64,000 nt of DNA from Setophaga petechia (Eukaryota > Chordata > Aves > Passeriformes > Parulidae), in contig JANCRA010000019.1 of assembly GCA_024362935.1 (NCBI GenBank), positions 2,448,001 to 2,512,000 of the forward strand, in the 5' to 3' direction. A program made the translations under genes and the position numbers. Shown here one piece after another: positions 1 to 61,690 of the stretch. The notes under the pieces are model-generated. The model saw only the letters and a program-made list of their open reading frames with translations, was not told the origin of the DNA and made no database searches. Within the stretch, counting starts at the first letter, position 1, and each line of letters opens with the position of its first letter.

Positions 1-36
1 TTTTCAAAAAGTTACCACATTCAGGAAAAAACCTAC

Positions 37-105
37 CTTCTGAGTTTTTGCATCTCACTGCTTTAAAACACAACTTTGCTCGCTCTCTGCTAGCCAGTTT
101 AGTAT
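37..105 (-). CDS. TRAPPC8: TRAPPC8 coding exon 23 (last one in window)
   Basis: Residues 1139-1161, starting [19 protein letters not shown] and ending KNSE plus one base. The acceptor is CTTTCAG and the donor GTAGGT at 36-31. The gene continues beyond base 1. Confidence 0.92.
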
Positions 106-30100: not shown

Positions 30101-33100
30101 ACTGAATAACAAAGTTACTACATGAATTTGTCCTTCTTTGTGATCTTAAACAGCTTATACACCTCTCCTCCTGTCAAATAAGCATACAGCCAGTGTGAAT
30201 GGAAATAGGAACCTAATCACTGAGAGATAAAAGATAGTCAAACATGGTAATTTGTACATCTGAGGCTCCAGCAGCAAATATGGAAAACAAAAGGAGAGAT
30301 ATTTGCTTCTGTAACTACAAAGCATTGCTTAATATAGCCACTATTTTTCTTCCCTTCTTTCAACATCTAAACTAAGGTCATTAAAAACCTCATGGAAAAG
30401 TCTCCTCACTGATATCATTCTGCTTTCTTAGGGTCTTTCCATCTCTAAAATTGAAGCAAACTTTCCATCAAAAAAAAATTCATAGCAAAATGGCAATTCA
30501 CCAATGTGATCTATAAAGAAGGGCACAGAAATTCTAAAAAATGTGGGATTTTCCACACATCTCAAAACCAAGAAATTTCCAGGCTCAGGTCTTTTGCTTT
30601 ATAACCAACACGGGACATCAAGCTGAAGACATATCTTGTAAATTAGGTATCCAAGACATGAGATTATGCCATTTTTCCATTATCAACATTTTAAAAAAAT
30701 TTACTACAGCAACATCAGTCACTAATTCTCACAAAGTTTTATCAGTCTATTGCTATAGCAGAGCTAAACTCCTCACTGCAGGGTGAGCTTTAAATACAAT
30801 AAATTACGCATGTTTAAATAGGGCAGTGCACACATGCTTTGAACTAAGTACATGCTCAGAGGCTTTAATGGATTAGGGTCTTAATTGGGAGGAGCTCAAT
30901 CTTCTCAGCTCCCAAGATCAAGTCTCATTTAGCATTATTCACAATACCTCATCACTTGGAGACCTGAGAAAAAACATTTTTAGAATACTCTAGTCATTTT
31001 GACAGTGAAATATGAAGCACAAGTTCCACAGAGGGAAAAAAATAAAAAGACACAGAATCAAAGGAGTCACACACCTTTCCTCACAGTCCTTTTTCCTTAA
31101 ACTTTTTATGACTTTATCATAAAAAATAAAAGAAGCTAGGATAACTAAGACAACTAACTTCAAGATAAAGCCGTACATTAGTACCAACACCAAGTTCTGA
31201 CATTTATTCAGCCAAGTGCAACAAGTCACTGTATCAGTTTTGTAACAAGAAAATTACACAACCAAAGCATCGCTAATGGCTACATTAAAATAATGATTTC
31301 ACAGAAGTAGAGAAGAAGTACAATACCAGGAAAATTAAAATTATTAATTCAGTTCAACCACTCTTTCAGCATTACATAAAGCCAAAACTATTCAATAAAT
31401 CCAAGGTTTCAGTAAAAGCAATGTCTCAAAACTGCAACTCTGAATAATTTTAGTACATGCCACAAACGTGAAATGAAGGCTAGAAATCTCTCAGCCAATT
31501 CCAGTTGACATTATGAAAAATACAAGAGCATTACATACCACTGATGTTGAGATCATAATCTCCAGCTGTGATCACATTAGCTACCAGTCCTTCAGCAGGC
31601 TGACTGACAGACACAACATCATGCAAAAGTTTCCGAATAGCACCGGGCTGAGGTGGGTGAGTAATGATGTTGTTGACAGCGATCTTCAAATTTTTAATGA
31701 TGTGAAGCTGATTATTAGGATCTCTCATGTGAACTAAAAAGGAGAAAGAAGAGGATTTGTTGAGGAGTATGACAGAGTTCAAATAAGTGTCATAAATTAG
31801 TCTTTTTCCAACACATTTTCTCTTTAAAGATTGCTCCACTAAACTTCTCCATCATCAATTTTAGATCATAGTCCATAATACTTGACTACCAAAAACAGAG
31901 GGGGGGAAGGTGGTAACAAAAAAATTACTTGATGTTCAACATTAGGCTCATCTAGGCAGACTGATTAATGAATAGCATGGGATCTTAGTTGGTAAGAATA
32001 TCCACTCCATCTAACATAGTACATGCACATCCTACACTGATACACTCCCTTCTGTGTAGAACATATCAACTTTCATGGAAAAGCCATAGGAACCATGTAT
32101 GGATTTCACACAACACATCGTGTTTCAAGGAATAAGAAGTTTCCAAGAAATCCGCACACACAAATAAATAGCATATAAGAAACTTGACAGGGATAACATA
32201 GTATTCATTAATCCAAAATTAACATATCCTAAAAGACAAGCTGAGAGAGTTGGGGTTGCTCATCCTGGAGAAGGGGGGAGACCTTAGAGCAGCCTTCCAG
32301 TACCTACAGGGGCTTTCAAGAGAGCTGGAGAGGTACAAGGGCATGTAGTGACAAGACAAGGGGGAATGGTTTAAAACTGAAAGAAGAAAGCAGATTTAGA
32401 TCAGATATTGGGAAGAAATTCTTTACCATGAGAATGGTGAGGCATTGGAACAGGTTGCCCAAAAAGCTGTGATGCCCTAACACTGGAACAGTTCAAGGCC
32501 TGGCTGGACAGGGATGTGAGCAACCTGGTCTAATGGAAAGTAACTCTAACCACAGCAGGGTGAACTTAGAACTAGATGTTCTTGAAGGTCCCTTTAAACC
32601 TAAACCATTCTATGATTTTTAGCTATAGCTTCCTTTGTAGAATCTTCATGAAAATTGCTTCCTAAAGCCATCTGGTTTTAAAAAACTGTTGGCAACATTT
32701 TCAACACTCGTTACAATTCTGGGCCTGCTGGATTTTTCATGTAATTTCACCCTATTTCAAACTACAACCCCACCAAGCAAGCCAGACTGTGAGTGCAGGC
32801 AGGACACACTGACTACAGCTGCCTAAGCCACCTGGTGCTACCATGTGCCACGCAGCACAGCCCGACTCCTCTGCATGTTTTTCCACAAATTCCTGTATAG
32901 CATAGAAAAGGTAGCACAAAGGAAAATTCCTAGTGTTTTCTTCATCTTTCAACTAACTACAGGATTCACACCATAAAGGTCTGAAACTGAGTATTCAATC
33001 TGCTCCAGCCTGGAAAGCACTCCACACCTTCTCCACAAGCCTCTTCTGAAGTACAAAGTACACAGCTAAAGTCAGATCACACTAGATGTGTTCACAATCC

Positions 33101-36100
33101 ATTTTGAATGTTAAAACAGATTTCTAATGTCATTCAAATCTTGACTCATGTAGTTCTACGTTCCTCAAGCACATATTCACTCCCAAGCTTTACCAGCACT
33201 CAAGCTTATGGGAAAACACAGTAAAGCAGGCTAGAAAACTCATCCTGCCAAAAACAACCTAAAATTGAGTGGGTTTTTACAGCTATAAGTTTCAGATTGA
33301 ACTCGTATATCATAAGGCTTTACCAACACCAGAAAAGGCAGTTGTGCTGGCTAAACTTTACTTAGTTCAGCATTTCTATCAGAAAGCTGAAGCAGTTGTT
33401 TTGGATGCAGCTTCTTTCATCTTATCACATTGGTAAATTATCAACCCTATTTTGAAATTATCAGATGTAAAGGAAGTGGCAAACAACTAGGAAACTAGTT
33501 TGCCTTCACCAGCACAGCTGTAACACTACAACTCATCCCTGCTGTCTGTCCTAAACATAACAGCCATAATAACGAAGAGCAAGCACATTTCCATACAGAT
33601 CACAGATGACATCTCTGGCATATGCTTAATGACAAGGACTGAAATAACAGACATACTTGGAACCCCAAAAAGTTTTAATACAAAAAAAAAAAAGACATGT
33701 CTTGTGTTATACATTTTCTTAAAATGTTTATAAGATAATTTCAAAAAGAACTTTGTCAAAACTGGCAGCAGTATCATGTATTAGAACAGTATCTTTCTCA
33801 TCAAAAGTTGAAGATGCTAGGATACACAAGGAACTCCTAACATCACACTAAGCTTGAATAAGCACAGTGTTCCCATTATACTTCTATACATCTTGCACAT
33901 ATTTAAGGCTTAGAATCACATTAAGTTATCAGAAGCTCTCTTTTTTTGTCTTAAGGTCAAATACTTTGATTTAAGAGTAACCAATGCTATCTTAAAGTGA
34001 TACTTGCTAATTGACATATGTACCATAATCCTCCCTCCCACAAAGACAGTATTAGTTCATAAGCATTTTTAAAGAGTCTTAAAAACAGGATCCTATTTTA
34101 AAGAAAACCTACCTATATACACAATTAATACAATGCATACACATGTTAAATCAGGCATCAGTTGTTACTAACAAACAAAACAGAAGTTAAGAAAGCCACT
34201 TTGAGAATAAATACAAAGGTATAAAATCCTCAGTTTTGGTTTCCTTATTAAAGGAACTTGAAAATTTGGGGAAGCTGTCCTTTCACTTTTTTAAACATTT
34301 CTCCTTCACTAACAGGAGGTGACTTTCTTACAGAAGTCAAGAGGCTAAAATTTACAGGACAGAGCAACCTGAATCTGTGCTTAGCACACTCTACCATCAC
34401 AGTTTGCTGAGTATTGCAAGGGTATTTTTGGCCACACCAATATTAGCAAGCCACTGATAGGCCAAAGTTGATGAGTAGATTAAATACTGACTTGTGCAAA
34501 GGGTGCTCCCATTGTGTCTACATTACATATCTTTGTGGGGTTCTACTTGAAATTAGATAGAATCTGGCCTCCTTAAATTAAGCAACATCAACAGTGTGTG
34601 GTTTTACTCTACCTGAAGGATTACATGGTGTTCTGGTCCTTCACATCTGTTAGCACGTGAAGGATGACTGACACGTGCACAGTAGAGAGCTCAGTTCAGT
34701 TCCTGTTTATCAGAATTGTTCTGCACATACATCAGTAGATTAATTTCCTACCTGCACTGCTTCTCTAAGCAAGAAGGCTGATGAACACACAGCCTTCAGC
34801 TGGTTCATAAGCTACATAATTCCTAATTTCAGATAAAAACATGCATTTTAACAGGACTCTAAAAATGCAGTAGCACATCCATGACTGAGCTTTTCAAGTT
34901 ATAGAAGAATTCAAGAAGCTATTCATGTACTTTGAACTTCGGCATAAGCAGGGGACAGCTTATTTCTAAAGGGATGAAATACTAATCAATCCAATTTTCT
35001 GTTACAAATTCAATGGAATAGCAACTAAGTAAGGAAAGACGGATTAATTTAAAATGGACAGCATTTCACACCCCCTTAAGAAAAACTGTGCTTAGAAAGG
35101 AAGATATCAAAACAGAATTAAAGAATCACAGAACTGTTATAGTTGCAAGGGATCACTAGAGATCATCTACTCCAACCTCCCTGCCAAGCCAGGATCACCT
35201 CGAGCAGGTAAACAGGAACTGCCTGGGTGTGTTTGGAATGTCTCCAGAGAGGGAAACTCCACAACCTCCCTAGGCAGCCTGTTCCAGTGCTCTGCCACTC
35301 ACAACGGAAAGAAGTTTTGCCTCATGTTGAAGTAAAACTTTTTGTATTTTAGCTTATGGCCACTGCTCCTCACAGAATCCCAGAATAGTTATCACCACAA
35401 TACCATAACCATACATAATATGAGAATAACAATAACATTATAACCAGAAGCAGTAAATCATAGAGCATGCCATGTGCACACATTCTGCTGTACCACCATC
35501 AGATCATTTAATCATGCCTGTCTTCCTCTCTGTCCTTACCCTCACACATGCTGCTTCTAACACAAGAACTGAGAGTCAGCATGCAGTAACATTTTTTCCA
35601 GGCAGGAAGAGGAAGTCACTCTTGGAGTGAGGAACTGGAGTCAGGCTTGTGGCCTGCTGGGTCAGAATAGACACAAAGTAGTGCAACAACAAAACCCCTG
35701 TGCCAACTTTTACGCAGGGAACACTGAGGATAATTCAGGTTTGCAAGTTCCTTAACTGTCACAATAACTGGACCAAAATAGTTGCAACTAAGTGAATTAA
35801 TTAACCTTCCAAGTGAATGCTTCATTTCCAATACTCTGCCTGGTTTTGTTTACTAGATGCATTTTGAGAGCTTTTCACTAAAAGAAAGAGATAATTAACT
35901 CCAGGACTCTAAAGATGTGGGCATCCGCATTTATTATTTTTATCTCTGCTGCATTCTCACATAGTTCATAAGCATTGTTAAATAAAACGAAAAACATTTA
36001 TGAACAAGTTACAATTGATAAGTTACTATGACTCACCTAAAAATTAAGGCAGATTTTTAACACAAAGTAGCTTTTAAGCTGTTGCTATTTTTTGAGAAAT

Positions 36101-37229
36101 GCAAAAATCTAACAAGAATGACAGTACAAGCTTCATTTTCTTGCACTCTTTCCTCAGCACATGACACGCAGGGGCTGCAGTCTGAGCTACATGTCTGTCA
36201 GAAACCAAATCTGACAAATGTCATTGCAGCACTATTCTGACAAGCAGTTCTCTGCAAACTGCTGTCCTGCACACTACTGTAATGAGCAGCAGCTTGAAAT
36301 GCATAGCTTATCTAAATTAAAAACAAACAAATTCCGGATAATAAGTTAAAGCATCACAGCTAAAAAACTCTGTTGTTTCTCGTAAATGGTCAATCTCCAG
36401 TTTTCCTGCTGCTTCACGTGGTCATTTTGCCACATAAGCAGCTCGATTCCCACTCCTTCTTTGCACAGGTCTTACTCACAGAAACAACAACAACAAAAAA
36501 ATAAAAAGAAAAAGAAAAAAGAAAAAAAGCATAAAGGATAAAGCTACAGGCAAGAGAAAGGAAAGCCCTGCAACTGAAACCACGATTCATGTTTCTGAAA
36601 GACTGGCCGTACTTTCAACGCCTGGCTACGGCAAGTGTGAAACCCAGTAGAGACTACAGCAAGAGTCAGGCACGAGTACTAGGGAGGTAACAGCAAAGTG
36701 GTTTTAATGGAAGACAAAAATCCGTCTGGAAGAGCTGAATTTACAGACACCTTCCTCTTCAGCCGTGGAATGCCTCCAGCAGAAACCTAACTTCCCCGGT
36801 TCCGCAGACTGAATGAAACTAAGCTAACTTAACAGCTGTCACCTGCGACAACCCCGGCAAACGCGTGTCTCCGCCAAGCCCGTCACGGCTCCCGGTGACA
36901 CCCGCCCGGGCGGCCGCTGCCCCGGCGCCGGGAAGGGGCGTCGGGCCCGTCCCGCAGGCACAGCCCCGGCGGCCGCAGCCGTGCGGGACCCCCGGAGGCC
37001 GCGGGCGGAAGGGAGCGGCGGCGCCGCCTCCCCCGCCCCGGGTAAACAACGCGCTCCGCTCCCGGCACCGACCTTCCGAGGTGAGGCGGCAGAAGGGCCT
37101 GACGAGCTCGGCGAAGCTGAGGTTGTTCTTGCGGGTGAGCCGCTCCGCCTCCTCGCTGCACAGCGCGGCCACCAAGGGCACGAACGAGTCCTGGATGAAC
37201 TCCTGCACCGACTGCACGCACTGGGCCAT
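37..37229 (-). CDS. TRAPPC8: TRAPPC8, trafficking protein particle complex subunit 8 (23 coding exons, 3' end off window)
   Basis: Trs85-type subunit that defines the TRAPPIII complex, a Rab1 exchange factor and tether acting in ER-to-Golgi traffic and autophagy. Joining 23 exons gives one open frame of 1161 codons with every GT/AG junction in phase; lengths from exon 1 are 157, 195, 90, 175, 154, 82, 248, 116, 151, 101, 106, 132, 225, 109, 195, 131, 75, 127, 158, 443, 148, 97 and 69 nt. The product follows human TRAPPC8 (about 1435 aa) throughout, from [11 protein letters not shown] through the conserved [20 protein letters not shown] block to the Ig-like C-terminal half, so roughly the last 275 residues lie to the left. 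The start is the ATG at 37229, conserved with human; an in-frame ATG 36 codons upstream is noted separately. No stop or frameshift was found. Introns 1 and 2 are about 5.3 and 5.4 kb, the rest 0.2-2.4 kb. The gene is divergent from RNF138. Confidence 0.97.
554..650 (-). CDS. TRAPPC8: TRAPPC8 coding exon 22
   Basis: Residues 1107-1138, [20 protein letters not shown] then [12 protein letters not shown] plus one base. The donor is GTGTGT, chosen because it keeps phase with exon 23. Confidence 0.93.
1892..2039 (-). CDS. TRAPPC8: TRAPPC8 coding exon 21
   Basis: Residues 1057-1106, [20 protein letters not shown] to [11 protein letters not shown]. The acceptor is TTCCTAG and the donor GTAAGT. Phase 0 end. 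Confidence 0.95.
3434..3870 (+). mobile_element. Solo LTR of an avian endogenous retrovirus, degraded
   Basis: Lies in TRAPPC8 intron 20. The stretch from AGGTTTAGGCTGGGATGG through the ATTCCATATCATATG block and CTTCCCAAGTAATC resembles a common avian ERV LTR that I recognise from memory. No internal gag or pol sequence lies next to it, so it is a solo copy. Ends are approximate. The 94-residue minus-strand frame inside it is not a gene. Confidence 0.65.
4322..4345. repeat. Short CR1-tail-like repeat
   Basis: Two tandem copies of the ATCACAGA motif typical of the CR1 3' terminal repeat seen in reverse orientation. There is little CR1 body next to it, so it may be a remnant or chance. Confidence 0.4.
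4395..4837 (-). CDS. TRAPPC8: TRAPPC8 coding exon 20 (largest)
   Basis: Residues 910-1056 plus two bases, from [20 protein letters not shown] to [15 protein letters not shown]. At 443 nt this is the largest exon here. It holds Ig-like beta segments with [20 protein letters not shown] conserved. The acceptor is CATACAG and the donor GTAAGT. Confidence 0.97.
4950..5237 (+). mobile_element. CR1 LINE 3' fragment
   Basis: Lies in TRAPPC8 intron 19. Carries the end of the CR1 3' region, with GTGGAATAGCTTCC, the AGGCATTTAGACAA segment and the near-terminal TGGACTGGATGATC. Truncated at the 5' end, as is usual for CR1. Confidence 0.8.
5631..5788 (-). CDS. TRAPPC8: TRAPPC8 coding exon 19
   Basis: Residues 857-909, [20 protein letters not shown] to [15 protein letters not shown]. 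The block around [20 protein letters not shown] is strongly conserved. The donor is GTATGT. Confidence 0.96.
6824..6950 (-). CDS. TRAPPC8: TRAPPC8 coding exon 18
   Basis: Residues 815-856, [20 protein letters not shown] then [20 protein letters not shown] and QT plus one base. The acceptor is CTCCACAG and the donor GTAAGT. Confidence 0.94.
7206..7482 (-). mobile_element. CR1 LINE fragment (reverse orientation)
   Basis: Lies in TRAPPC8 intron 17. Starts with the reversed 3' end ATCACAGAATGACTGAAGC, then CTGGAGGTCATCGTGCCC, and continues to CAGCCTCTTGTGCCCAC further into the element. The plus-strand 67-codon frame here is part of the repeat. Confidence 0.85.
7638..7712 (-). CDS. TRAPPC8: TRAPPC8 coding exon 17
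   Basis: Residues 790-814, [20 protein letters not shown] then EETKV. The N-terminal few residues differ from human, the rest matches. In phase at both ends, with TTTCCAG and GTAAGT. Confidence 0.92.
8789..8919 (-). CDS. TRAPPC8: TRAPPC8 coding exon 16
   Basis: Residues 746-789, [20 protein letters not shown] then [20 protein letters not shown] and TKEQ. This is the first Ig-like beta segment of the C-terminal half. The acceptor is TTGATAG and the donor GTAAAG. Confidence 0.94.
9108..9302 (-). CDS. TRAPPC8: TRAPPC8 coding exon 15
   Basis: Residues 681-745, [20 protein letters not shown] to [12 protein letters not shown] plus one base. Phase continues into the EPITVEV start of exon 16. The donor is GTAAAG. 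Confidence 0.96.
10038..10146 (-). CDS. TRAPPC8: TRAPPC8 coding exon 14
   Basis: Residues 645-680, [20 protein letters not shown] then [16 protein letters not shown] plus one base. A proline-rich linker between the helical N-terminal and beta-rich C-terminal halves. The donor is GTTAGA. Confidence 0.95.
11147..11371 (-). CDS. TRAPPC8: TRAPPC8 coding exon 13
   Basis: Residues 570-644, [20 protein letters not shown] to [14 protein letters not shown]. Very high identity to human. TPR-like helical repeats. The donor is GTAAAT. Confidence 0.96.
13326..13457 (-). CDS. TRAPPC8: TRAPPC8 coding exon 12
   Basis: Residues 526-569, [20 protein letters not shown] then [20 protein letters not shown] and KAGQ. 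Phase 0 at both ends. The donor is GTAAGT. Confidence 0.95.
14985..15090 (-). CDS. TRAPPC8: TRAPPC8 coding exon 11
   Basis: Residues 490-525, [20 protein letters not shown] then [15 protein letters not shown]. Part of a TPR-like helical stretch. The acceptor is ACTTCAG and the donor GTAAAA. Confidence 0.96.
15406..16371. mobile_element. Solo LTR of an avian endogenous retrovirus, about 966 bp
   Basis: Lies in TRAPPC8 intron 10. Begins TGTACTGG and ends CAATACA, the TG...CA form of LTRs. The flanking pentamers CAGGT and CAAGT differ by one base and look like a decayed target-site duplication. The body resembles a widespread avian ERV LTR I know from other birds, including AATTTATTGGCAATTAATA and repeated TGCTCCAGCATG-like blocks. 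There is no internal viral sequence, so this is a product of LTR-LTR recombination. The 161-codon minus frame and 85-codon plus frame inside are repeat shadows. Confidence 0.75.
16572..16672 (-). CDS. TRAPPC8: TRAPPC8 coding exon 10
   Basis: Residues 457-489, [20 protein letters not shown] then [13 protein letters not shown] plus two bases. The acceptor is CTTGTAG and the donor GTAGGT. Confidence 0.95.
17985..18135 (-). CDS. TRAPPC8: TRAPPC8 coding exon 9
   Basis: Residues 406-456, [20 protein letters not shown] to [13 protein letters not shown]. Helical repeat region. The donor is the poorly matching GTTGGT, but phase and the next exon agree with it. Confidence 0.95.
19384..19499 (-). CDS. 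TRAPPC8: TRAPPC8 coding exon 8
   Basis: Residues 368-405, [20 protein letters not shown] then [18 protein letters not shown]. Almost identical to human. Bounded by CTTCAG and GTAAGT. No long ATG-initiated frame covers it, so simple ORF finding would miss it. Confidence 0.95.
21092..21339 (-). CDS. TRAPPC8: TRAPPC8 coding exon 7
   Basis: Residues 285-367. The first half is a variable linker. The second half is the strongly conserved [20 protein letters not shown] and [17 protein letters not shown] of the Trs85 family. The donor is GTCAGT. Confidence 0.96.
22777..22858 (-). CDS. TRAPPC8: TRAPPC8 coding exon 6
   Basis: Residues 258-284, [15 protein letters not shown] followed by [12 protein letters not shown]. 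This low-conservation linker is slightly shorter than the matching human stretch. It is too short to give a long open frame, but is supported by TGGCAG acceptor and GTATTT donor and by phase. Confidence 0.9.
23239..23279. repeat. Short tandem repeat, 9-bp unit TCTGAAAAA
   Basis: Lies in TRAPPC8 intron 5. Three near-perfect copies of TCTGAAAAA, plus a final variant copy with TATC in place of TCT. No function is apparent. Confidence 0.7.
24024..24177 (-). CDS. TRAPPC8: TRAPPC8 coding exon 5
   Basis: Residues 206-257. Contains [20 protein letters not shown] and [20 protein letters not shown]. The acceptor is CTTTCAG and the donor GTATTA. Ends in phase 0. Confidence 0.96.
24573..24747 (-). CDS. 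TRAPPC8: TRAPPC8 coding exon 4
   Basis: Residues 148-205 plus two bases. Contains [20 protein letters not shown] and [20 protein letters not shown], nearly identical to human TRAPPC8. The donor is GTGGGT. Confidence 0.96.
26024..26113 (-). CDS. TRAPPC8: TRAPPC8 coding exon 3
   Basis: Residues 118-147: [20 protein letters not shown] and onward to HYVA plus one base. The acceptor is ATTTCAG and the donor GTATCC. Phase joins cleanly to the Cys-Met-Leu start of exon 4. Confidence 0.95.
26114..31538 (-). other. TRAPPC8: TRAPPC8 intron 2
   Basis: 5.4 kb. AT-rich. I see no CR1 body, RNA gene or conserved coding block. It contains a 150-codon minus-strand open frame at 28442-28894 that I do not recognise and judge to be chance. 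Confidence 0.8.
31539..31733 (-). CDS. TRAPPC8: TRAPPC8 coding exon 2
   Basis: Residues 53-117. Begins with the rest of a Val codon, then [20 protein letters not shown], and ends GDYDLNIS plus one base. The acceptor is TTTTTAG and the donor GTATGT. Confidence 0.96.
32236..32622 (+). mobile_element. CR1 LINE 3' fragment
   Basis: Contains the typical CR1 order: TTGGGGTTGCTCATCCTGG, AGCAGCCTTCCAGTACCT, GGAACAGGTTGCCCA, TTCAAGGCCTGGCTGGACAG, AACCTGGTCTAATGGAA and AACCATTCTATGATTTT at the 3' end. About 390 bp, the most complete plus-strand copy in the window. Confidence 0.93.
35124..35372 (-). mobile_element. CR1 LINE fragment (reverse orientation)
   Basis: Reversed 3' end AATCACAGAACTGTTATAG, then GATCATCTACTCCAACC, CCTAGGCAGCCTGTTCCAG and a final TATGGCCACTGCTCCTC. 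Lies in TRAPPC8 intron 1. Confidence 0.9.
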
Positions 37230-37640
37230 GGCCGCCGCTCGGGGCCGCCCGAGACGGCCCCGCCACCTTTCTCCGCAATTCTCCGGATTATTCCCTCCCT
37301 CCCTCCTTCCTTCCTTCCCTGGCCGCTGCCTGTACACGGCTCCCGCCCGGGCCCCGCTCAGCGCCCGCCGAGCGCCGCCATGTTGCGCCTCAGCCGAGCC
37401 CCTCGGGGAGCGCCCGCTCCCGGCGGCCCCCGCGCCCGCTCATGTGATTGGACAAAGGGGCGGTGCCGGGCCGGGAGGGGGAGGCGACGGTGGCCGGCCG
37501 GAGGGGGGGAAGAGAGGGAGCACACAACGCAACACTCCCCCGCCCCGGAGCGGGCAGTTGGTGCGGTCCGGGCGGCGCGGGGCCGTGGGATGGTCCCGCG
37601 GGATCCTGGAGCTGGGAAGCGGGTTTGGCCAAGGAACGGG
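36850..37640 (-). promoter_or_regulatory. TRAPPC8: CpG island and promoter of TRAPPC8
   Basis: Very GC- and CpG-rich block surrounding exon 1, in sharp contrast to AT-rich flanks. No TATA box is obvious. The transcription start probably lies between the ATG (37229) and about 37400. On the plus strand the region includes a CCTCCCTCC/TTCCTTCC pyrimidine run at about 37287-37320, within the likely 5' leader. Several overlapping long frames on both strands here are GC-driven shadows. Confidence 0.85.
37073..37229 (-). CDS. TRAPPC8: TRAPPC8 coding exon 1
   Basis: Residues 1-52, starting [11 protein letters not shown] and ending CRLTSE plus one base. The donor is GTCGGT at 37072-37067. It lies in the CpG island. 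The upstream strand carries a pyrimidine- and G-rich leader. Confidence 0.96.
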
Positions 37641-48210: not shown

Positions 48211-48270
48211 GCTGAGCCTGTTCTCCCTGTGACCACATTTGATGTAATTGGTTGTGAACATTGTGTCTGT
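48211..48270 (+). pseudogene. RNF125: Possible RNF125 exon 1 remnant
   Basis: The frame reads AEPVLPVTTFD and, six residues later, CVCLQTI. Human RNF125 has a DPELPVTSFD stretch immediately before CAVCLEVL at the start of its RING finger. Seven of ten residues match before the break (P, L, P, V, T, F, D), and the following C-V-C-L order is retained after an apparent 18-nt insertion and a one-codon loss. There is no CpG island, no start-codon context like that of RNF125, and no recognisable CGHV end or donor. Position and strand fit the human gene order. Taken alone this could be chance. Confidence 0.45.
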
Positions 48271-48274
48271 CTTC

Positions 48275-51200
48275 AGACCATCACAACCTTCCATCCTGGT
48301 GCTCATTCCAGCCCTTCCCACCACAGTCAGGTTTCTGTGTGTGCCATCTATAGAGTACTGGAAAAATATCATCAGCAATCTCTGAAATCTCTAATGCAAT
48401 CTTACCAATGTCTTCATGAGATTTCCATTCTTCACATCAGCAATAACAATGCCATTTCTGTTTTCACATATTATTGACAGGCACTTAAGGGCTTATTTGC
48501 TGGGTATTTTAATGTTGGTTTGTTGGTCTGCTTTTTTTTTTTAATCCTCTTTACTTTTAACCTTCCTGATTTAATGCTTTCCATATATTATTCATTCTTA
48601 CATTAAGTCAGATTTTAAATGCGTGTGTGATTTACCAGAAGAAAAACCCTACAGATTTAGTCCCTGATTGATTTTTTTAATAATCCTAGCACTTAATTAT
48701 CTTAGAGTGGCTAATGACCTTTTATCACATTAGATTATTAATGCAGTCATATGCAAAGAAATTGAATTTGGGTGTAATTCAGATCTAAATCTTAACCAAG
48801 TGACACCAAATGTAATGCACTAATAGACAAAATTAGAGTCCAGCCGGTAGCATGGTATTACTGTTTTCCTCCTGATTTATTGGATACTAAAAGAAACCAG
48901 TAGCTGTCAGAAGAAATTTATTGATTTGATTCTGACTGACAAGATTGCACATGTGCTGGAACATACTTTGTTGCAGTTTCTATAACAATGCATGCTGCTA
49001 TCCTGGTTTTTGTGGGTTTTACCTAAGATGACATACAATTCTTAGATCTGCTTTTATTATTCATCAGGGGATAGCAATGGAGTGAATAGCAAGGACAGGA
49101 TTTCCTGTCCTTCTGCTGTCATTACATGTTTGATTTAGCAAGTTAATAACATGACTGTAAAGGCTGTTTATATGAGACAATAATCACTGCAGAGTTTGGG
49201 CCCAGAAAATGCTGATAACTTCTCCAAAACCAAATGTGTGATGGAAACTTCCAAGAAAATCACTTTGACAGGAGATTACTAGTTTTACTGCAGGCCAGAT
49301 GCAAACTGAAAGATAACTGAATGTGTTGATGCTTTCATCTTGGAGGTGCCAAGTCTACTGCATTTCCCATTTTATTTCTTACTCAAAAGTGGGTCATACT
49401 TGACTTTGCTTCTGTAAAAATACCAAGCTGTGGAAAATACATTGGATAGTAGAAAATATATTCATAAATTAACAGATATTAGGTTTTAGGATTCTATATT
49501 CAAATTTTCCCAATAGTAAAGAAAAAATAATATTCTGTCATGACAAAAAAGACACTGCCCAAAAGATATTGCAACCTTTTCCAACTGTATTTAATAGGGC
49601 AGATGCAACTTTTAGCCAAATGAGAAGAACCTAGACAGATCCCAAAACATTTAAATGCATTACTGAATGTATCATATATATCCCAGTGCCTGAAGAAATA
49701 AGTGGAACATTACTTTGTTCCTGGAGTGTTCACATGCCTGAGGACACCTAGAAGGAATCTGCCTTTTTTTTTGCTTCATTACAGGCAAAACCAACCCAAC
49801 ACTTGCTTTGGTAGATTGCTTTGACAGCTGCATTAAGGTCACTGTGTGATGTTTGTACATCTTCAACTCCTTCTATGATTTTTGCTTGGCTTCAGCACTC
49901 ATTTCCACTGTTGGCAGAGAAGCTTCATGCACAGGGATGAATGATGTGAGAGAATATGACAAGAAAAATCACAGCTTTTTTTCCACAGCCCAGCACTCCT
50001 TGAGCACCTTAACTTCCTGCTAAAATTAACCTACATTTGTGTCTGTCAGCCAACACAAGGATATGTCTCATATCTTTTGTTGCCCTATCTTGTCATTTGC
50101 CACAGACATCCCCATCACAGCCATCATAAGAGTACTGGGTAAAGAAATAACAGGCTGAAAACAGATAAAAATTAGAATCCTTCATAACTTTTATAAATAG
50201 AGCAAAATAAATTTCTCTGAAATATCTGTGGTCATTGTTTTTAACATTTAGCCATTAAGCCTTTCCCTATTTTCTTTGACAGAGGTAGCTGATGGTCCAT
50301 CATGCTGGCACAAGGAATATGGGCCTCAGCTGCCCACACCCAAGGAAATGCCTTCTCCAGTGCTAATGGAAGTGTATTTTTAAAAGTAATCGATGACTGA
50401 ATCATCAGCTTTGAGATGACCTACCTCTGCCTACCACTATTTAAATGCCTTGTCAGTTACATCTGTGCTCAACAGTTGCTCCCTTTCCCAGCCTGGCACT
50501 TGGCACAGGCCTCCTTCTGCTGCTTATGGCAGGCAGAAGTGTCACTTAAGCAAGTGTTCAGGAGTTATTCCAGGGGGGAAAAAATGAGAAAAAAGGATGA
50601 AAGGTTTCCTTGCATGTTTCTGAGCTCCCTTGTTTCCAGGATCACTCGCTGGCCTCAGAAGCTAAGTCAGCTTTGCAGTGTTCCTTCCCAACAGTGATCC
50701 AGCTAAGCAGTTGGGCCTTTTCCGCTATTCATCCGGCACGGCTTTTCACTATTTATGCCAGGTCACAGATTATGGAAAATTAGGTGCTCCTGAGCTGAAA
50801 CACACTAATATATGCATGCATGTCTAAAAGTGCAACTGTTTGGATCAGCCTCAATATCTCCTAGATGAAGTAACTCATTAGCTTTTGTGGGATTTGGGAG
50901 GTGTTAGGCAGCCCCTGGCTAGAGACTCATGGCAATTGTTTGGAGGCTAGGCAGGAAGGGGAAAATGTAGGGCTTTAGCAGTGTTCAGAGTCAATATCCT
51001 GAGGTACTTACGTGTTATTTAATCTATCTGCACCATGTTAAGTTTTGTTTGTTTGTTTTATGTGTTTAGGTGCAGTCTGAGCAAAGAAAGAGATAAATTG
51101 AGTTAAGGGTGGCGGGGTTTTTGTGGCTGAACCTGAATTTTTTGAAAATTGCTTTTATAGTCAAGGTAAGAAATCACTGGTTAACAGCATAAGACCATTT

Positions 51201-52545
51201 GCATGTAATGCATGAGTGCAGTTGTTCTTCACCAACCCTTTATATCAACTTTTTTCCTACTACTGACAGTTTTAGAGTGAGGGTGAACAAACTGGCAAAG
51301 GGTAATCTGATTTTATATTCTGTTACATTAAAAGGGGAAAGCTCTCAGACAGCATTTGTGAACCTTGTACAGGGTTATTTATAGAAGATTCATCTGTTCC
51401 TCAGGGAAACAAAGAAACCTTTTCAACCCTGTCTAAAGTACAGGAATGATCTAACTTAAAACCTGCCTGCGGGCAAACAGTGTGTAACAATTCAGTTTAT
51501 CCTTGGACAAGGGAGCATGTCGGGTCTCTGCTGGACCCTATTTGCACCTTGCGCAATCATTTATACTTCTGTGAAATAACTGCAAAATACCACCTTTTGT
51601 CTGACTTGGACTTTGATTGTATTTTATATGGCTCCGTGGAGCTATAGATGATGGTAGCTTCCAAAGAAGAGATTACATCTGAAATCCTCCTGTAGATCGA
51701 TCTCAGGCTGTTAAGTATGTTAGAAATGCTGCTGGAGAGTGCTCTGGCAAGCTTGGCAGGTTGTTTTACGGTGGTTTGAGGTTTTGTCTCATTATCCAGC
51801 CCCACTCCCTGCCGGAGCTGCCTTCTACATTGCAGAGCTGGTGGGAGCAAGGTGGACTCTTGCCTTACCACTTTGGTGCAAAGATTAGCATTTTAGCAAC
51901 GGGGAAAACAGGTGGATTCGCTCTAAAATGGCCAACTGAGTAGAAGTATCTGAGGAAAAGTCTGTGATACACTGAAGGTTGCAGTCTGGTACAACAGCTC
52001 CTTCTAGCTCCTCCAAAGCCGGAGGGGCTGTCAGTCAGTCAGTGTGCATCCTTTCCTTTGTCCTTCCATGCAGCCCCAGGCTGTTATTTTGAGCTTCAGA
52101 TCCCTATCGCAACATGATAGAAAGCAGTAAGCAAGTGTAAAGGAAGGCCTTTTCCTCTCCCATTAGCACCAGGAGTTTTCAATAGTGCACATGGCAGTAA
52201 TGTTTTTTTCTACATCTCTGCAAGAAAATTCACCAAAGCTTATCCATCATATCTGACAAATTTGACAAAAGCTGAAAAAAAGCTTTCAAAAGCAGCTGCA
52301 GTGACCACTAATTCAATCTGTTGTAATTCCTAAAACCAGAGACCTAGTTAAAATACTCCCAAAGGTAGGTATCCCTTTCCACAAGCCCAACCCCAAGATG
52401 GTTAAATCAAGGAACCACTTGCCACACAACAGCCCAAAGTTTCCCCTTCAATTGCTGCCTAAAACCGCAAACGTAACTCTCCATCTCCTGACTTCATCAT
52501 GTGCTGGAGAAATTGCCTTGTCTCAACGACCTGGATAGTTTGTAG
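48275..52545. other. Intergenic, no gene seen
   Basis: AT-rich, without recognised repeats or coding blocks. If RNF125 is decayed here, this would be its former first intron. Confidence 0.65.
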
Positions 52546-52550
52546 CTTAT

Positions 52551-52632
52551 ATCATAGAATATCCTGAGTTTAAAGGGACCCACAGGATCATGGAGTCTAG
52601 CTCCTGGCTCTGCACAGGACAGCCCCAAAATG
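52551..52632 (-). mobile_element. Short CR1 LINE fragment (reverse orientation)
   Basis: ATCATAGAATATCCTGAG, AAAGGGACCCACAGGATCAT, CTCCTGGCTCTGCACAGGAC and GCCCC. This is a well-known avian CR1 3' end, cut after about 80 bp. Confidence 0.85.
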
Positions 52633-53084
52633 GTTGTCTGTTACAGAAGCAGCATGAAGTATTCTGTTGGTTCTGGGCTCAGGAGGACTTTAAGTAAGCT
52701 GTTAATGAGCATATTTGTGACATTGTCCAGCAGCAACACTAAAAAAATGAAATCATCTTTGCTGTGATGTCAGGTTTTCAATCACTGACTGGAGGCTTTG
52801 CCTGGCCCATGGGGAATGAGTTCCTCACTTCTGCTCTCAGTGAATCCTCACACTCATTGTGTATTTTGGTGCTATCAGGAGGCTCAGCTTGTCTGTTTTC
52901 AGCTCTCTGCTTGATGCAAGCAGGACCAATTTGCACAATCTTAATAACACATTCTAAGAAGAACAAATATCCTGCACGTTACACCAGGGATGTCATGTGG
53001 TCCAAAATGTTTATTGTTTTTTATATGCCCTCCCTTATGGAAAGCCTATTTTAAAGCATTTGGTTTTGTTTCTTCTATGTATAG

Positions 53085-53240
53085 ATTTTGTCATTTCTAT
53101 ATTTCTGCAGATTTAAATAATATGGCATAGCTCTGTCCTTACTGTTACACTTATCTTTCTTCTGCAGGAATTCCAGCCACTGATATGGCCAAGACAGAAA
53201 AATACATACAGAAACTGAACAGAATGCAAAATATGAGTTT
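53085..53240 (+). pseudogene. RNF125: RNF125 exon 2 remnant, disrupted
   Basis: RNF125 is a RING E3 ligase that targets RIG-I, MDA5 and MAVS. After a good acceptor (pyrimidine tract and TATAG ending at 53084), the frame from 53086 reads FCHFYISADLNNMA, then TAG at 53128-53130, then LCPYCYTYLSSAGIPATDMA and K. Aligned without gaps to human RNF125 from FCRSC to the GVPATDVAK block, I count 19 identities in 36 positions, including CPYC and PATD. Defects: the stop replaces the Trp before CPYC; the second Cys of FCRSC is Tyr, removing a zinc ligand; and after the lysine at 53193 a 27-nt unmatched stretch and a probable frameshift precede AGAATG. The exon begins at the same codon split after the RING His-Val as in RNF138. 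Location and strand match human RNF125 between TRAPPC8 and RNF138. Confidence 0.75.
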
Positions 53241-53244
53241 GCAG

Positions 53245-55005
53245 CCTTGAACACTAACTGCTAAATAATTCCAGAGATGTGTCCATGCCTGAGAACTAAC
53301 AGTATTGAAATCCCTTTTTAATGACAGGTATAAACAGAAATTCCACCAGCATAATGATGGAAGAATACGTTTTTGGAATTCATCAAGCTGATATCTAAAA
53401 GAGCTCTAAAACATTCTGCCAGTGCCATTGTAAGTCTTAATCTCAGACCTAAACCTACAGGAGCTGAATCTTCTTGATCCACTACATTGGCTTTGACCAG
53501 ATAAAGGACACAAAAAATACCTCATGATTGTGCTTCATCAGAAGTACAGTACTTCACTGTTATATGGAGGTTCTGAGTTCATGGAAATCAGATAGCCAGT
53601 AGCAGCAGCAATATCAAACCCCAATTATCCCTAATGAATCTGCAAGAAAGTTTGGCTGAAGACTACATTGAGGTCTGAATCAGGCCCTCACATTGGAATA
53701 TTTTTTGCTTTTAGTGCAGTTGGTGTAGATTTTCATCACAAAAAACAAGCCAGATGTGATCTGGAAGGGTCCCTCTCCCCAAACTAATTTTTTTTCCCTT
53801 TTGCCTTCCAGATTTAACTCAAAAATATTAAGAGCAAATATAATGGACAAATAAATTCACCACAAACTAATAATCATTTCACCCAAATGGACCTTACTTT
53901 TACAAGGTGAATATTATTATTATATAACATATTAGTGCAATACTGACCCAGTAATAAATAGCTTGAGGAACTGAGCCCATAGTCAAAGGAGAGCCTTCCC
54001 TAGGTATAGCCACAATGTTGTAATAAGGTTTGAACTAGAATATATTGAGTAACGATTTAGCATGAATGGGTCATGGTATAAACCATAACAAGCTGCTGTT
54101 TCTCACTGCTTAGGTATATCTGAGTAAAATAAAACCTCATTTAAGAACTTAGGAAAAATATGTAGAAAAATACAGACCTATACAGAAGCTTGGACTTGCT
54201 GTAATAAAGTAGACCTTAGTGTTGAAGAATTTTTAAAAGCACTTTTAAATTTGTTATCCCAGCATAGTGAATTCAATTTGGTAGAAAAACTCTTTGTTGA
54301 TTTTCTTATGTTTTGTTTTGTTTTAGTTGGACTTGTTTCTGTTTCATGTAGTTCGACATTAATCCTTGATTAATATTTTTCAATTATAATACTGGAATAG
54401 TACTTCAGATGCATGCTATTTTTTGTGTACAACTACAATACATTTTACTAGCATTTAGTAGTTTGATAGACTTAGCTCCACATAACCTGCTTTCTAGAAA
54501 CAGTCATATTTTGAAAAGTCAGCAGTTTTTGCTGTTTTTCTTGGGGGAGAATTATGTTTACTTTCAAATAAAACTACTTGAAAATGTTGAATAAGACTGA
54601 TCATAATCTGAATGTAATTGACCATCTCCTAAGAATTTATTCCTCAGAAATAGTTTTGAATTATGAAGATTGGCAGCTCTTCTTATTAATATATAGTATA
54701 TAGAAAGAATATATGTATTTTTAAAATATATGCGTGTTGTATGTCAAAAGTTCAAATTCTATGTTCCTTTCATTCTCTTTCAGAGCAGAACATGTTAGCG
54801 AATTTGATTAAATGTGTAGCCATTCTAAAATTACTCAGGTCTTGAAATTCAATGGCCTTTAGTTTTGTTCATTAATGATAAGAAGCAATTTTGGTATCAT
54901 TATTGAAATGTTTTTATTTATGAATTTAAAGTGCCTATACTCTGCTGTGTAAATTCCTAAACTACATACTATTGAGGTTGCTGAAGACAGACTCATCTCC
55001 TTTTC
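53245..55005. other. Intergenic, no gene seen
   Basis: AT-rich. No repeat or coding block recognised. Confidence 0.7.
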
Positions 55006-55007
55006 AG

Positions 55008-55061
55008 TTACTGTTCTGATTCTCAGAAAAACTTGAGCATTTGTCCACATACATTTGAAAG
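55008..55061 (+). pseudogene. RNF125: Possible RNF125 exon 3 remnant
   Basis: After a strong acceptor (CTCCTTTTCAG ending at 55007) the phase-0 frame has SEKLEHLST at 55023-55049 and then YI*K. Human RNF125 exon 3 has S-E-x3-H-I-x-T, then CQK and YIDK. Seven positions match if a three-codon loss is allowed, and two stops (55017 and 55056) interrupt the frame. The order fits between the exon 2 and exon 4 matches, but the similarity is weak. Confidence 0.3.
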
Positions 55062-55461
55062 CTGCACTGACCTGAAAAATTGTCTCCACCATGCAAAAGG
55101 ACCATGCTCTGTACTGAAAAATGAGTAGAAGTCCTCTGCTAAGGGGTGTCAATACTCAATGAGCACTCCTGAGAATTGATAGTTTGGTCACGCCTGCTCC
55201 AAGAATATCACAGCAATTAAATTATGCTTTTAGAAAATGCCTGTAGTGGTAGTGATCAGTATTTTCATCTGTTCTTCAATAAGGTCATGGATAACCATAA
55301 CATAAATTGAGTGCTTTTCTGGATCGATATCCTGACATGTTGGCACAGGGAACTGTGCAGCATCCATTAGCAAGGCTGACCTCTTGCCAGCATAGCATAC
55401 ATCAGGTGCCTGCTACACACTCATGCTGCAGTCTGGCATGGCAAAAGAAGGATCCTTATGA

Positions 55462-55502
55462 TGTCTGGCCAAGGAAACTTCAATAGTTTCCTTGGCCAGA
55501 CA
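55462..55502. repeat. Perfect 18-bp inverted repeat with 5-nt loop
   Basis: The left arm TGTCTGGCCAAGGAAACT (55462-55479) and right arm AGTTTCCTTGGCCAGACA (55485-55502) are exact reverse complements around TCAAT. This would form a stable hairpin in DNA or RNA. The right arm runs into an ATATATAT stretch. It lies between the exon 3 and exon 4 remnants of RNF125. Confidence 0.95.
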
Positions 55503-55609
55503 ATATATATATTCCAAATATATAAACTTCTTTTATAGTTTGTAGTAACAAAAATGTATCAGTATCCACTAAAAACATACAACTTATTCACAGATCCTCT
55601 TTTCCTTAT

Positions 55610-55671
55610 TGCCCATGCAAAGTAGATGAGGGTGAGCTAATGGGCCATGCCTCATGCACTACAGATCAGAA
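55610..55671 (+). pseudogene. RNF125: RNF125 exon 4 remnant, frameshifted
   Basis: The frame from 55610 reads CPCKVDEGELMGH to 55648. Shifting by one base, 55648-55671 reads CLMHYRSE. Human RNF125 exon 4 has CPFC and then LLDHCITHHRSE, a zinc-finger segment. Matches are C-P-x-C (one residue lost), L, H, C, H, R, S and E, with conservative I/L and H/Y changes. A single missing base between the His and Cys codons explains the frameshift, and about three codons are missing between CPC and ELMGH. It is downstream of the exon 2 remnant on the same strand, as expected. Confidence 0.6.
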
Positions 55672-55679
55672 GGGACAGC

Positions 55680-58600
55680 AGCAGTAATGTACATAAGCAT
55701 ATTATTTTACTGAATTTGCAGATTAAACGGATTAATTCTAGCAACCATTGCTGATAGGAAATAATCGAGAAAGTGTATTAATTGTTCAATTGATTTTGAC
55801 AGCAGAGGACAAATGTACCTATATTCCCCCCCCCCCATCTCTCTTAGAAAAGCAGGTATGCACATAATATTTAAAATTGTAGCAATCCTATCATTCTAAG
55901 TGCTGCCTGAACCACTGAAAATGTGCAATAACTCTTATTAGGGTTACAACAAACAGTTGCTTACAGCCAGATCAAAGAGCACAGTTCAGCGACTCGCCTG
56001 ATTTTAAATCCAGCATGTGCTATTTCTACTGCCCTAAATCAGATTTGTGTAGCATTCCTTCTGTATTCTTATCTGGGTTTTGTAGTCATAATTTGAAAAC
56101 TGCTTATGTGGTCTAATATAGGAGTCTGTCATAGCGGGAGGGTTAACTTTTTTCCCCTAAGTTTTGATAACTTCACATAAATGACTCCATTCTGAAGGTC
56201 CATGGAGGCTGCAAGGTCTTACTGTGACTCCATTTGTAGGTTTGAGGTCAACAGGGTGTAGACTTGGATCTTGATAAATGTAATTTACTTCTCTGATCAT
56301 TATTTGCCATGGCATTTTAGACTGTGACTCTCACATCTCACAGAAGAGGTCTTTTAGAGAGGTTACAGACTCAAGGACCTGTAGACAAATTAACCAGCAC
56401 TCCCATTTCTCACAGTGAGTGGGATGGGGGAACACACTCTGTTCCCTTTAACACTGCAGCTTTATTTTCACCACTTTAATCATGATCATATAAGAGACAG
56501 AAACCCAAGTAAATTAAAGGAATTCACACAGAGTCTATACAGTCTGCACTTTTATATGAGTTAATGCTTTTATGTGTACAGTATACAGGCACACTGGCTT
56601 TTACAGCAGCCTCTCCTATTTGTCTGCAGCTCCATTCCAGGAGCAGGCCAGTCTTGTGTTGTGTACTGAGGATGGCAATGCAATGCTGGAGGTAGATGAC
56701 AAACAGCAGCATTGGAGATGCAACAGGACCAAACAAACTGGAACAAATTCCGCCCTCCTCGCCCCCAACGGTACTGGGTGTACTACCTACTGCCAAGAGC
56801 TGCACGTAAGTTTCCATTTACAGTGCAAGATGAGACTTAAAATAAGCAAAGTTGGTTAAATTAAAGCTGTTTTGAAAGGATAGCAAGAAGCAAATATTCT
56901 ACTTATAGTAAGAAAAAATTGAACCCTGTTCAAGAGAATAGACTCTTATAACTAACCTCTGTTCTTACGGTGTAAGTTTATAAAAAAGCATGTCCATTTT
57001 TTTTGCATGCACAGTATAACACAGTATCTTTCAAAGATGCACTTGAACTGTAAAAAATTAAAATTCGTGTTCATTCATTGAAGCATATACAGTGATTAAA
57101 GTGGCTTTACTCACATGGTAACATATTAACAAGGAAACTGGCCTCTACACTTAAAATTTTGGAATCAGAAAGCGGATCCTTTTTGGGAAGAGAAAGGCTC
57201 AGTGTTTCACATGCCTAGGAAAGTTGCTTTCCTTTTCTTTGAGAACTGCCCTCGCAAAAGAAAACTCCTCAGTCAGAAAGATGGACAGTATTGCTCCAAA
57301 GGTGTTGCAGTGTTGCTTGATATGGTGGGATGACCTGTGTAACTAAAAAAACATCTAGTCTGCCAGAGCAAAGTAGCCTAAAACATAGGGGAAAAGATAT
57401 TTGATTTACGGCTTCCTGGACATCCAAAAAACTTTTTACATGTATGAAATAAGCTGTAGGAGTGCTGTCCTTAGTTTTGTCTGTGGCTGCCAGTGTTTGC
57501 AGATACATCTGGCAAGAGCAAAAGAGACGTCCTTCCCCTTGCACATGACACCTTTTGACCTCTCTGCAGTTACACAGCTTTGTCTCTTTCCCCTTCTTCT
57601 CACATCCATCTTTGACTGTTCCCACAGAACAAATCTCTGCATTTTTCCTATTGGCAAGTAGATGCACTGTTCTTGCACCAGCATTGTCAAGAAGGCAACA
57701 GAATAATAGTTGTACAAAAATATTCCTACAAAGTTGTACAATAGTTGTGCAAAGGTGATCTAAAATGTACTTTTGGAGTGGCAATTTACCCCTGCAAACA
57801 GTAGTTTACAAGCAGTTCTAAAAGTTTTTACTGATGAGATTTCATTTCACAAACACATTTTATCACAAGGAATAAAAAGTTGGAAGGGCCATTGGTTTCA
57901 TTTCATCTAAAAAGTCTGATTTAAAATGCTCTCCTTCAAATAAATGTGTTTCATAAACTTCAGCTGCCTGATTTCTCTTTACATGTTGTTTATGTGAATG
58001 GCAAAAACTACGAAGGATTTACAAGGCTTGTGCCATGCTCTATATTGCTCCACGGTGCACCAGTTGTCAGCTCCAAGGTCACAGCTTTATTAAAGGATCA
58101 AGATTTACAATAATGTTAACAAGAGCATGAATGCCTTCACAGACACCTTCCTGTAGTTTACTTCCCTGAAGTCACCTGCACAATTTCTCCCCCTGCCAAA
58201 GCTACTAATCAATAAATACTGCAGTCTCCTGAAGAAAGTTCAAGTGGTTCTATCATGTTGCTTTAGTAATAAATCTTTGCTTTTGTTTAACACCTGCCTT
58301 CAAAAGACATAACCTTCTTTACCTGCAGTAATTAAACTTCCTAACAGCCTTATTTGGTGATTAAAACCTCCTCCCTTCTTAAAGATTGAGAAACTGATGC
58401 ATAAGACCATGAAGTCATAAAAGAAGAGTAAAAGACCTGGAAACCCATCTCTGCTGGCCTCCCATGTGCTGAGGCTGAAGGCCACGCTGCCTGTACCCAA
58501 ATGGCAGTTGTGTAGCATCTCAACTGTGGCTTCTGTAATTTTTCCTTTTCATATACTGTCACAGGCTGTCTAGGTTGCCTCTGAAGGTGTGGTGTCATCC

Positions 58601-60783: not shown

Positions 60784-61690
60784 TTCCATCCAGAAACACC
60801 CCGGAGCCTGAGCGCTGCCACCGGGCAGGCTAGCGAGCGCCGCTGCTGCGCGGAAGGGCTGCGGGGCGGGCGCAGCGCGGGGGCGGAGCGGAGCGGGGAA
60901 GCCTCACGGACAGGGCGGAGCGGGGGCCGTGTCGTCGCGGCCCCGCCGGGCCGGGAGGCGATCGCCATGGAAACGCCGGCCCCGCCCCTGCCCCCCCGAG
61001 TGCCGCCGGGAGCGCGGCCGGAGCTGCCGGGTCCCTCCTCCCCGGGCAGGGCCAGGTAGAGCGCGGGGCGGGGGCTGCCGGGGCCGGGCGGGCGGAGCCG
61101 CGAAGGGCGGCGGGCGGAGCGCAGGCCGGGCTCGTTCCGCTGCCCCGCCGCAGCTCGGCCCGGATCCCACCCGGCGCCGGTGCCCCCAGCCATCCGCTCT
61201 CGTACCCCCGGCCGCGCCTCCCGGGAGCGAAGCGGGGCCGGGCTCTCCTCGGCCCGCCAGGGCGGGGCTTGTTCGTCGTCCCCGATCCTGGCGGAGAGGC
61301 CCGTACGTGTTGCCATGGCCGAGGGGGCCGCGGCGGCCCCGGCGTGCTTCAACGAGGATGATTTTTACTGCCCGGTGTGCCAGGAGGTGTTCAAAACGCC
61401 CGTGAGGACCGCCAACTGCCAGCACGTGTGGGTATCCCGACCCCCCGCCCCTTCCCAAGCCTTTTCCTCGATTCCTCCTGCTCTCCGCCTTGTGCTCCTC
61501 GGCTCCCCCCGCTCCCGGCGCACGGACCCTCGGCCTGGAGACGCTGGCGGTGAGGATGCGAGCCCGGTGCTGCTCCAGCCTCCCCTCGCCTCTTTCTTTT
61601 GTAGCCGACGAGGACCGGTGGTTTAGGAGGAGCCCCCCCACCTCCCCGGGTGTCTGCTCGGCGGTGGGGGAGTTTTGCTGTGCTCTCTGA
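60780..61690 (+). promoter_or_regulatory. RNF138: CpG island and promoter of RNF138
   Basis: Dense GC and CpG sequence from the CR1 boundary through exon 1 into intron 1, with several GGGGCGGGG/GGCGGG boxes of Sp1 type. No TATA box is obvious. The start of transcription probably lies within a few hundred bases upstream of the ATG at 61315. Long minus-strand frames (60714-61641) are GC-driven shadows. Confidence 0.85.
61315..61427 (+). CDS. RNF138: RNF138 coding exon 1
   Basis: Residues 1-37 plus two bases, ending TANCQH and a split Val codon. The donor is GTGGGT at 61428. Carries the first four RING zinc ligands. Confidence 0.96.

Follow-up and report, generated by a model that had tools for sequence, protein, structure and literature searches.

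RNF125, which in human lies between TRAPPC8 and RNF138, is almost certainly a unitary pseudogene in the wood-warbler Setophaga petechia, dead in place and with its remnants at positions 53085-55683 of a 64,000-nucleotide stretch of genomic DNA (the window; C19:2448001-2512000 of an assembly of 1.22 Gb in 687 contigs). The remnants have minus-strand TRAPPC8 on one side and plus-strand RNF138 on the other and lie on the RNF138 strand, and it is their position, strand, exon order, introns, in-frame stops and frameshifts, together with the lack of any better match in the assembly, that point to a unitary pseudogene of RNF125. This upholds the central claim of an original prediction made from the letters alone, although the span that it gave, 48211-55671, is replaced by the narrower supported part. 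RNF125 would thus have been inactivated at its original locus, with the promoter, exon 1 (which encodes the first RING half) and exons 5-6 (which encode the C-terminal part) gone or decayed beyond recognition, and exons 2-4 left in order. Because the locus is dead and the assembly yielded no working copy, RNF125 E3 ligase is most likely not made in this bird.

The window was searched by tblastn with human RNF125 (232 residues, identical to PDB 5dka_A) and with ten bird and reptile RNF125 proteins. The human query gave collinear plus-strand matches at 53086-53202 (51%, E = 4e-8), 53192-53251 and 54114-54191 (50%, E = 1e-4). Exons 2 and 3 were located at these positions, with lower E-values, by all ten bird and reptile queries, each of which in addition found exon 4 at approximately 55586-55684 (E = 4e-4 to 0.14). 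Against penguin RNF125, exon 2 is identical at 24 of 36 residues (67%, E = 8e-11, aligned over 53086-53193), exon 3 at 59% of 32 residues (E = 4e-7) and exon 4 at 62% of 21 residues (E = 4e-4). Exons 2 and 4 had been predicted correctly as remnants but with limits that do not hold, since exon 2 does not end at 53193 but runs on to 53236, and exon 4 extends over 55594-55683 with a one-base frameshift. Exon 3 had been described as weak and is in fact present at full length (54114-54208).

The three pseudo-exons carry four in-frame stops and two frameshifts in total. Pseudo-exon 2 contains three of the stops (TAG at 53128-53130, TGA at 53216-53218 and TGA at 53234-53236) and has a net loss of two bases, leaving the frame shifted beyond 53193 up to 53236. 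Pseudo-exon 3 has a stop (TAG, 54150-54152) in place of a conserved cysteine, and pseudo-exon 4 is frameshifted by a net loss of one base near 55646-55648. Across exons 2-4, four conserved cysteines, which we presume to be zinc ligands, are replaced by Tyr, stop, stop and Phe. The intact RING and C2HC zinc ligands that a functional RNF125 ligase requires are therefore not present. Disabling changes had been predicted in every exon, and they are found in exons 2, 3 and 4; those ascribed to exon 1 fall away with exon 1 itself, as described below. Vertebrate RNF125 is an E3 ligase with a RING and zinc fingers, and the warbler locus resembles it in exon order, in residues and in its TRAPPC8 and RNF138 neighbours, whereas its stops, frameshifts and missing exons leave no ligase that could be encoded.

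To measure these matches against random similarity, positions 37.9-60.2 kb were scored exon by exon without gaps using penguin RNF125 and compared with 200 dinucleotide shuffles. Exons 2, 3 and 4 scored 123, 96 and 72, against shuffle maxima of 56, 48 and 44, and none of the 200 shuffles did as well for any of the three, so that the translated search proposed with the original prediction places these exons far above random. The adjoining RNF138 has the same RING/C2HC layout, and similarity to a paralogue such as RNF138 or RNF114 could in principle have produced the matches. The pseudo-exons were therefore compared with RNF114 (two fish-type proteins) and with RNF138 from human and from this bird. 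Pseudo-exons 2, 3 and 4 score 125, 99 and 93 against penguin RNF125, far above the paralogue scores of at most 54 for RNF114 and at most 38 for RNF138. Judged from sequence, the pseudo-exons resemble RNF125 more closely than they do RNF114 or RNF138, and the orthology call is clean. Chance or paralogue origin is refuted by the shuffles, the paralogue scores and the intron anchors described below, and has a probability close to nil.

Exons 1, 5 and 6 behave differently in the same interval. Penguin exon 1 is at chance level there (77 of 200 shuffles score as well, and the reverse strand scores better), and the same holds for its RING core taken by itself (197 of 200), for exon 5 (180 of 200) and for exon 6 (137 of 200). 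An exon 1 had been proposed near 48211; the match is 14 residues long, has an E-value of 1.3 to human RNF125 and is not where penguin exon 1 scores best, and the proposal is rejected. Genome-wide, the matches to exons 5-6 include RNF138 (C19:2516230), two loci with the C2HC domain PF18574 on contigs C33 and C14, and a weak one on C4.

The introns place the remnants at the original locus. Several bird RNF125 models contain stretches that match the window outside the exons, and those in Aquila, Falco, Pterocles and Nyctibius are read, from their sequences, as intron mistaken for exon (Table 1); the others among the 16 models tried gave matches to exons alone or no clear match beyond them. Pieces of intron are collinear from intron 1 to intron 4, indicating that this is the original locus, neither processed nor transposed, and the gaps between pseudo-exons 2 and 3 and between 3 and 4 are 877 and 1385 bases with AG/GT borders. 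The kept introns rule out a retrocopy. Dispersed repeats were also considered as a source of the anchors and rejected within the scope of one 501-base stretch of intron 4 (56280-56780), for which the only match in the whole assembly is the stretch itself. None of four anchor stretches has a second match inside the window.

Table 1. RNF125 remnants, intron anchors and neighbouring genes, in window positions
Feature	Position	Strand	Evidence
RNF125 pseudo-exon 2 (RING end and C2HC finger start)	53085..53236	+	tblastn, shuffles, codon and splice reading
RNF125 pseudo-exon 3, full length	54114..54208	+	tblastn, shuffles, codon and splice reading
RNF125 pseudo-exon 4	55594..55683	+	tblastn, shuffles, frame and splice reading
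Intron 1 piece, golden eagle (Aquila) RNF125 locus	52710..52840	+	65-71% to residues 2-45, model P0097
Intron 3 piece, kestrel (Falco) RNF125 locus	54985..55077	+	69% to P0129, E 7e-9
Intron 3 piece, sandgrouse (Pterocles) RNF125 locus	54994-55077	+	62% to P0117
Intron 4 piece, golden eagle (Aquila)	56290..56492	+	57-58% to residues 168-223 of P0097, E 6e-14
Intron 4 piece, potoo (Nyctibius)	56632..56757	+	64% to residues 205-245 of P0089, E 2e-9
TRAPPC8 exon-bearing stretch, left neighbour	1..37439	-	open frames with TRAPPC8 domains
RNF138 exon 1, intact neighbour/control	61315..61431	+	stop-free segment
RNF138 exons 2, 3	62295-62465, 63950-64066	+	stop-free segments

To determine whether a working gene lies elsewhere, penguin RNF125 was searched against the whole assembly with E-values up to 1. 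The search gave 62 matches, the best of which is pseudo-exon 2 itself (61%, with one stop); pseudo-exon 3 is also among them (54%) and pseudo-exon 4 is absent. The remaining 60 matches are 28-58% identical, most have no gene name assigned, and the second-best (C3, 41%) reads like TRAF6 by eye. Judging from six models of other birds, open or partial, a working bird RNF125 should match at approximately 85-99%. No intact RNF125 was found elsewhere in the 1.22 Gb, and no other place equals pseudo-exon 2 in identity or score, which agrees with the prediction of a missing intact gene as far as assembled sequence extends. PF18574 (zf_C2HC_14) has matches at three places only with E-values up to 0.001; one is RNF138, and those on C33 and C14 are taken as RNF114 and RNF166 by elimination. 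It is nevertheless conceivable that the window holds a dead duplicate and that a working RNF125 lies elsewhere or in an unassembled GC-rich stretch, given that GC-rich genes are known to be absent from bird assemblies and that some gaps are likely among 687 contigs. This is very improbable, as the dead copy keeps its introns and occupies the ancestral position, the search of the assembly returned nothing better than a dead exon, and the named RNF125 representatives include no passerine.

Several points weigh against the reading of RNF125 as a gene long dead at its own locus. The apparent loss of exons 1, 5 and 6 rests on the absence of a detectable match. GC-rich genes and exons are often missed in bird assemblies, and exon 1 of bird RNF125 is likely to be GC-rich; dropout of GC-rich sequence does not, however, account for stops inside exons 2 and 3. 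The genome-wide single match in intron 4 covers 56280-56780 and not the intron 3 anchor. All six splice dinucleotides of pseudo-exons 2-4 are still AG or GT, a mild oddity that may reflect chance or a residual spliced non-coding transcript. On the same side stands the age of the loss, on the order of 60-80 million years and hence early, a modelled figure that assumes a rough neutral rate, a particular ancestor and no functional divergence before the loss.

The splice sites are the main support for a transcribed pseudogene, in which a spliced non-coding RNA would use the old exons 2-4 in some regulatory role, since by a rough estimate all six dinucleotides would be kept with a chance of about one in ten under neutrality at 0.2 substitutions per site. 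This possibility is unlikely, given that 67 of 111 codons matching the reference amino acid and four stops indicate no coding constraint, and that no promoter-like CpG island is present. In a base-composition scan of 36-63 kb in 500-base windows, flagged where CpG observed/expected exceeded 0.6 or GC exceeded 0.55, the rich windows were at 36.5-38.0 kb, on the TRAPPC8 side, and at 60.5-62.0 kb, at RNF138, with none in between. The absence of a CpG island for a third gene had been predicted and is borne out.

The extent of decay was measured over 111 comparable codons. Of these, 67 agree with a penguin-like reference, compared with 98, 102, 103 and 106 in the models of four other birds, and a simulation of neutral decay required approximately 0.2-0.25 substitutions per site to reach 67. 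At a passerine neutral rate of approximately 3e-9 per site per year, this gives the 60-80 million years named above. This amount of substitution since the end of selection suggests an old loss, one that is therefore probably shared by many or all passerines.

The distribution of RNF125 in other birds was assessed from named cluster representatives, which cover 26 bird species; other matches were nameless and left unassigned. This sample is biased, as clustering at 90% hides the other members of each cluster and sequences in decay more readily form clusters of their own. Models from the penguin Spheniscus, the ibis Theristicus, the pelican Pelecanus and the reptile Caretta are open at full length, that of the jacamar Galbula is nearly full, and those of the penguin Pygoscelis, the kiwi Apteryx and the reptile Alligator are open over exons 2-6. 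On sequence grounds these relatives appear to possess a functional orthologue, and the open models in several birds rule out a bird-wide loss, so that the loss ascribed to "this lineage" in the original prediction is narrowed to this wood-warbler. In the same biased sample, 11 of the 26 bird species have a model tagged 'LOW QUALITY PROTEIN' by NCBI: Phoenicopterus (flamingo), Pluvialis (plover), Alca (auk), Morphnus (eagle), Nyctibius (potoo), Chlamydotis (bustard), Aegotheles (owlet-nightjar), Rhynochetos (kagu), Pterocles (sandgrouse), Phaethornis (hummingbird) and Amazona (parrot). The tagged models are P0059, P0081, P0089, P0111-P0115 and P0117-P0119. The tags suggest decay in these birds. 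Ten further models are partial, lack exon 1 or contain odd pieces (Calypte, Dryobates, Apaloderma, Bubo, Falco, Aquila, Guaruba, Rhea, Dromaius and Apteryx), and none of the 26 named species in this biased sample is a passerine, galliform or anseriform. Repeated erosion of RNF125 in birds is thus a lead and not a result.

The state of the target of RNF125 was assessed by searching the assembly with the RIG-I C-terminal family, which gave five matches at three loci. The locus on C124 has duck RIG-I as its best match (4a2v, E = 1e-52), the locus on C5 has MDA5 (5jc3, E = 2e-31), and the locus on C44, judged by eye, resembles LGP2. Open exon pieces of RIG-I at C124:687-708 kb (within C124:684001-714000) run from CARD1 to the C-terminal domain and align with residues 5-195, 236-463 and 551-928 of duck 4a2w, leaving residues 196-235 and 464-550 uncovered. 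These pieces were picked and joined by eye from open ones only and so lack stops by construction; with the two uncovered stretches, they indicate a RIG-I that is open over most of its length, not one that is fully intact. RNF125 therefore appears to have been lost while RIG-I was kept, and a coupling of RNF125 loss to RIG-I loss in this bird is unsupported.

Losses in the RIG-I pathway of birds have been reported before. According to Krchlikova et al. 2022 (PMC9861763), there were 16 independent losses of RIG-I among 148 species, almost always with RIPLET, and RNF125 goes unmentioned in the main text of that paper. The losses of RIG-I and RIPLET/RNF135 resemble the present case as in-place decay of RIG-I-pathway genes in birds, scattered over several orders. 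The difference is that RIG-I there disappears together with its activator RIPLET, whereas here the inhibitor-type RNF125 is dead and RIG-I is mostly open. Pseudogenes of TLR5 reportedly occur in passerines, and are alike in being an inactivated innate immune gene and unlike in being another gene. Among the matches listed from the open-licence literature, no title or abstract reports a loss of RNF125 in birds; in PMC9039741 the name RNF125 occurs in the discussion only, and in PMC6663980 in the references only.

RNF125 acts on MDA5 and MAVS in addition to RIG-I, and passerines make up more than half of all bird species. In mammals, RNF125 is a negative regulator of RIG-I, which it marks with K48-linked ubiquitin for degradation, and the authors of a 2019 review knew of no published studies of duck or chicken RNF125 (PMC6466002). 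With RNF125 dead, K48-ubiquitin turnover of RIG-I, MDA5 and MAVS by this ligase would be absent, and either other ligases would take over or turnover would be reduced. Antiviral signalling may be altered as a result, a consequence that the original prediction had also drawn; other ligases may substitute, and the passerine ancestor may have had little need of RNF125. A lineage with RIG-I but without RNF125 would show, as a natural experiment, whether this brake can be dispensed with, and it counsels caution in carrying models of RIG-I turnover over from mammals to songbirds. Many RNA viruses have birds as their natural hosts, and RIG-I status varies sharply among birds. In a broader scenario, RNF125 died early in passerines, leaving RIG-I and MDA5 there without this brake, and has been eroding independently in many other orders; we give this scenario an even chance. 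If it is true, birds lost this brake on RIG-I in events distinct from those, already known, in which RIG-I and RIPLET disappeared together.

The genes on either side are as predicted. Of four minus-strand open frames tested to the left of 32 kb, three match TRAPPC8 domains (Ig_TPPC8_3rd, E = 1.6e-56; TRAPPC-Trs85, E = 2.7e-14 and E = 6.5e-6, the last slightly short of the Pfam curated cut-off) and the fourth matches nothing. RNF138 is represented by six stop-free segments in the window and its right flank, the last three past the window end, and residues 131-151 of the human query have no match. A 79-codon open frame on the minus strand at 60359-60598 has no Pfam match and presumably resembles the end of a CR1-type retroposon reverse transcriptase. 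The assembly includes a mitochondrial contig, C687, of 16,809 bases, and a protein search with its ND2 bears on the identity of the bird. Among the best 120 of 7504 matches, the top 16 are all Parulidae at 97-99%, with Setophaga pensylvanica, S. ruticilla and S. petechia at 99% and Basileuterus melanogenys, which has the lowest E-value, at 98%; icterids reach 95-98%, and Emberiza and Peucaea 94-95%. By this measure the bird is most likely a wood-warbler and probably a Setophaga. Mitochondrial ND1 has 27 further matches outside C687, on nuclear contigs, which are fragments of mitochondrial DNA in the nuclear genome; some of them lie next to one another.

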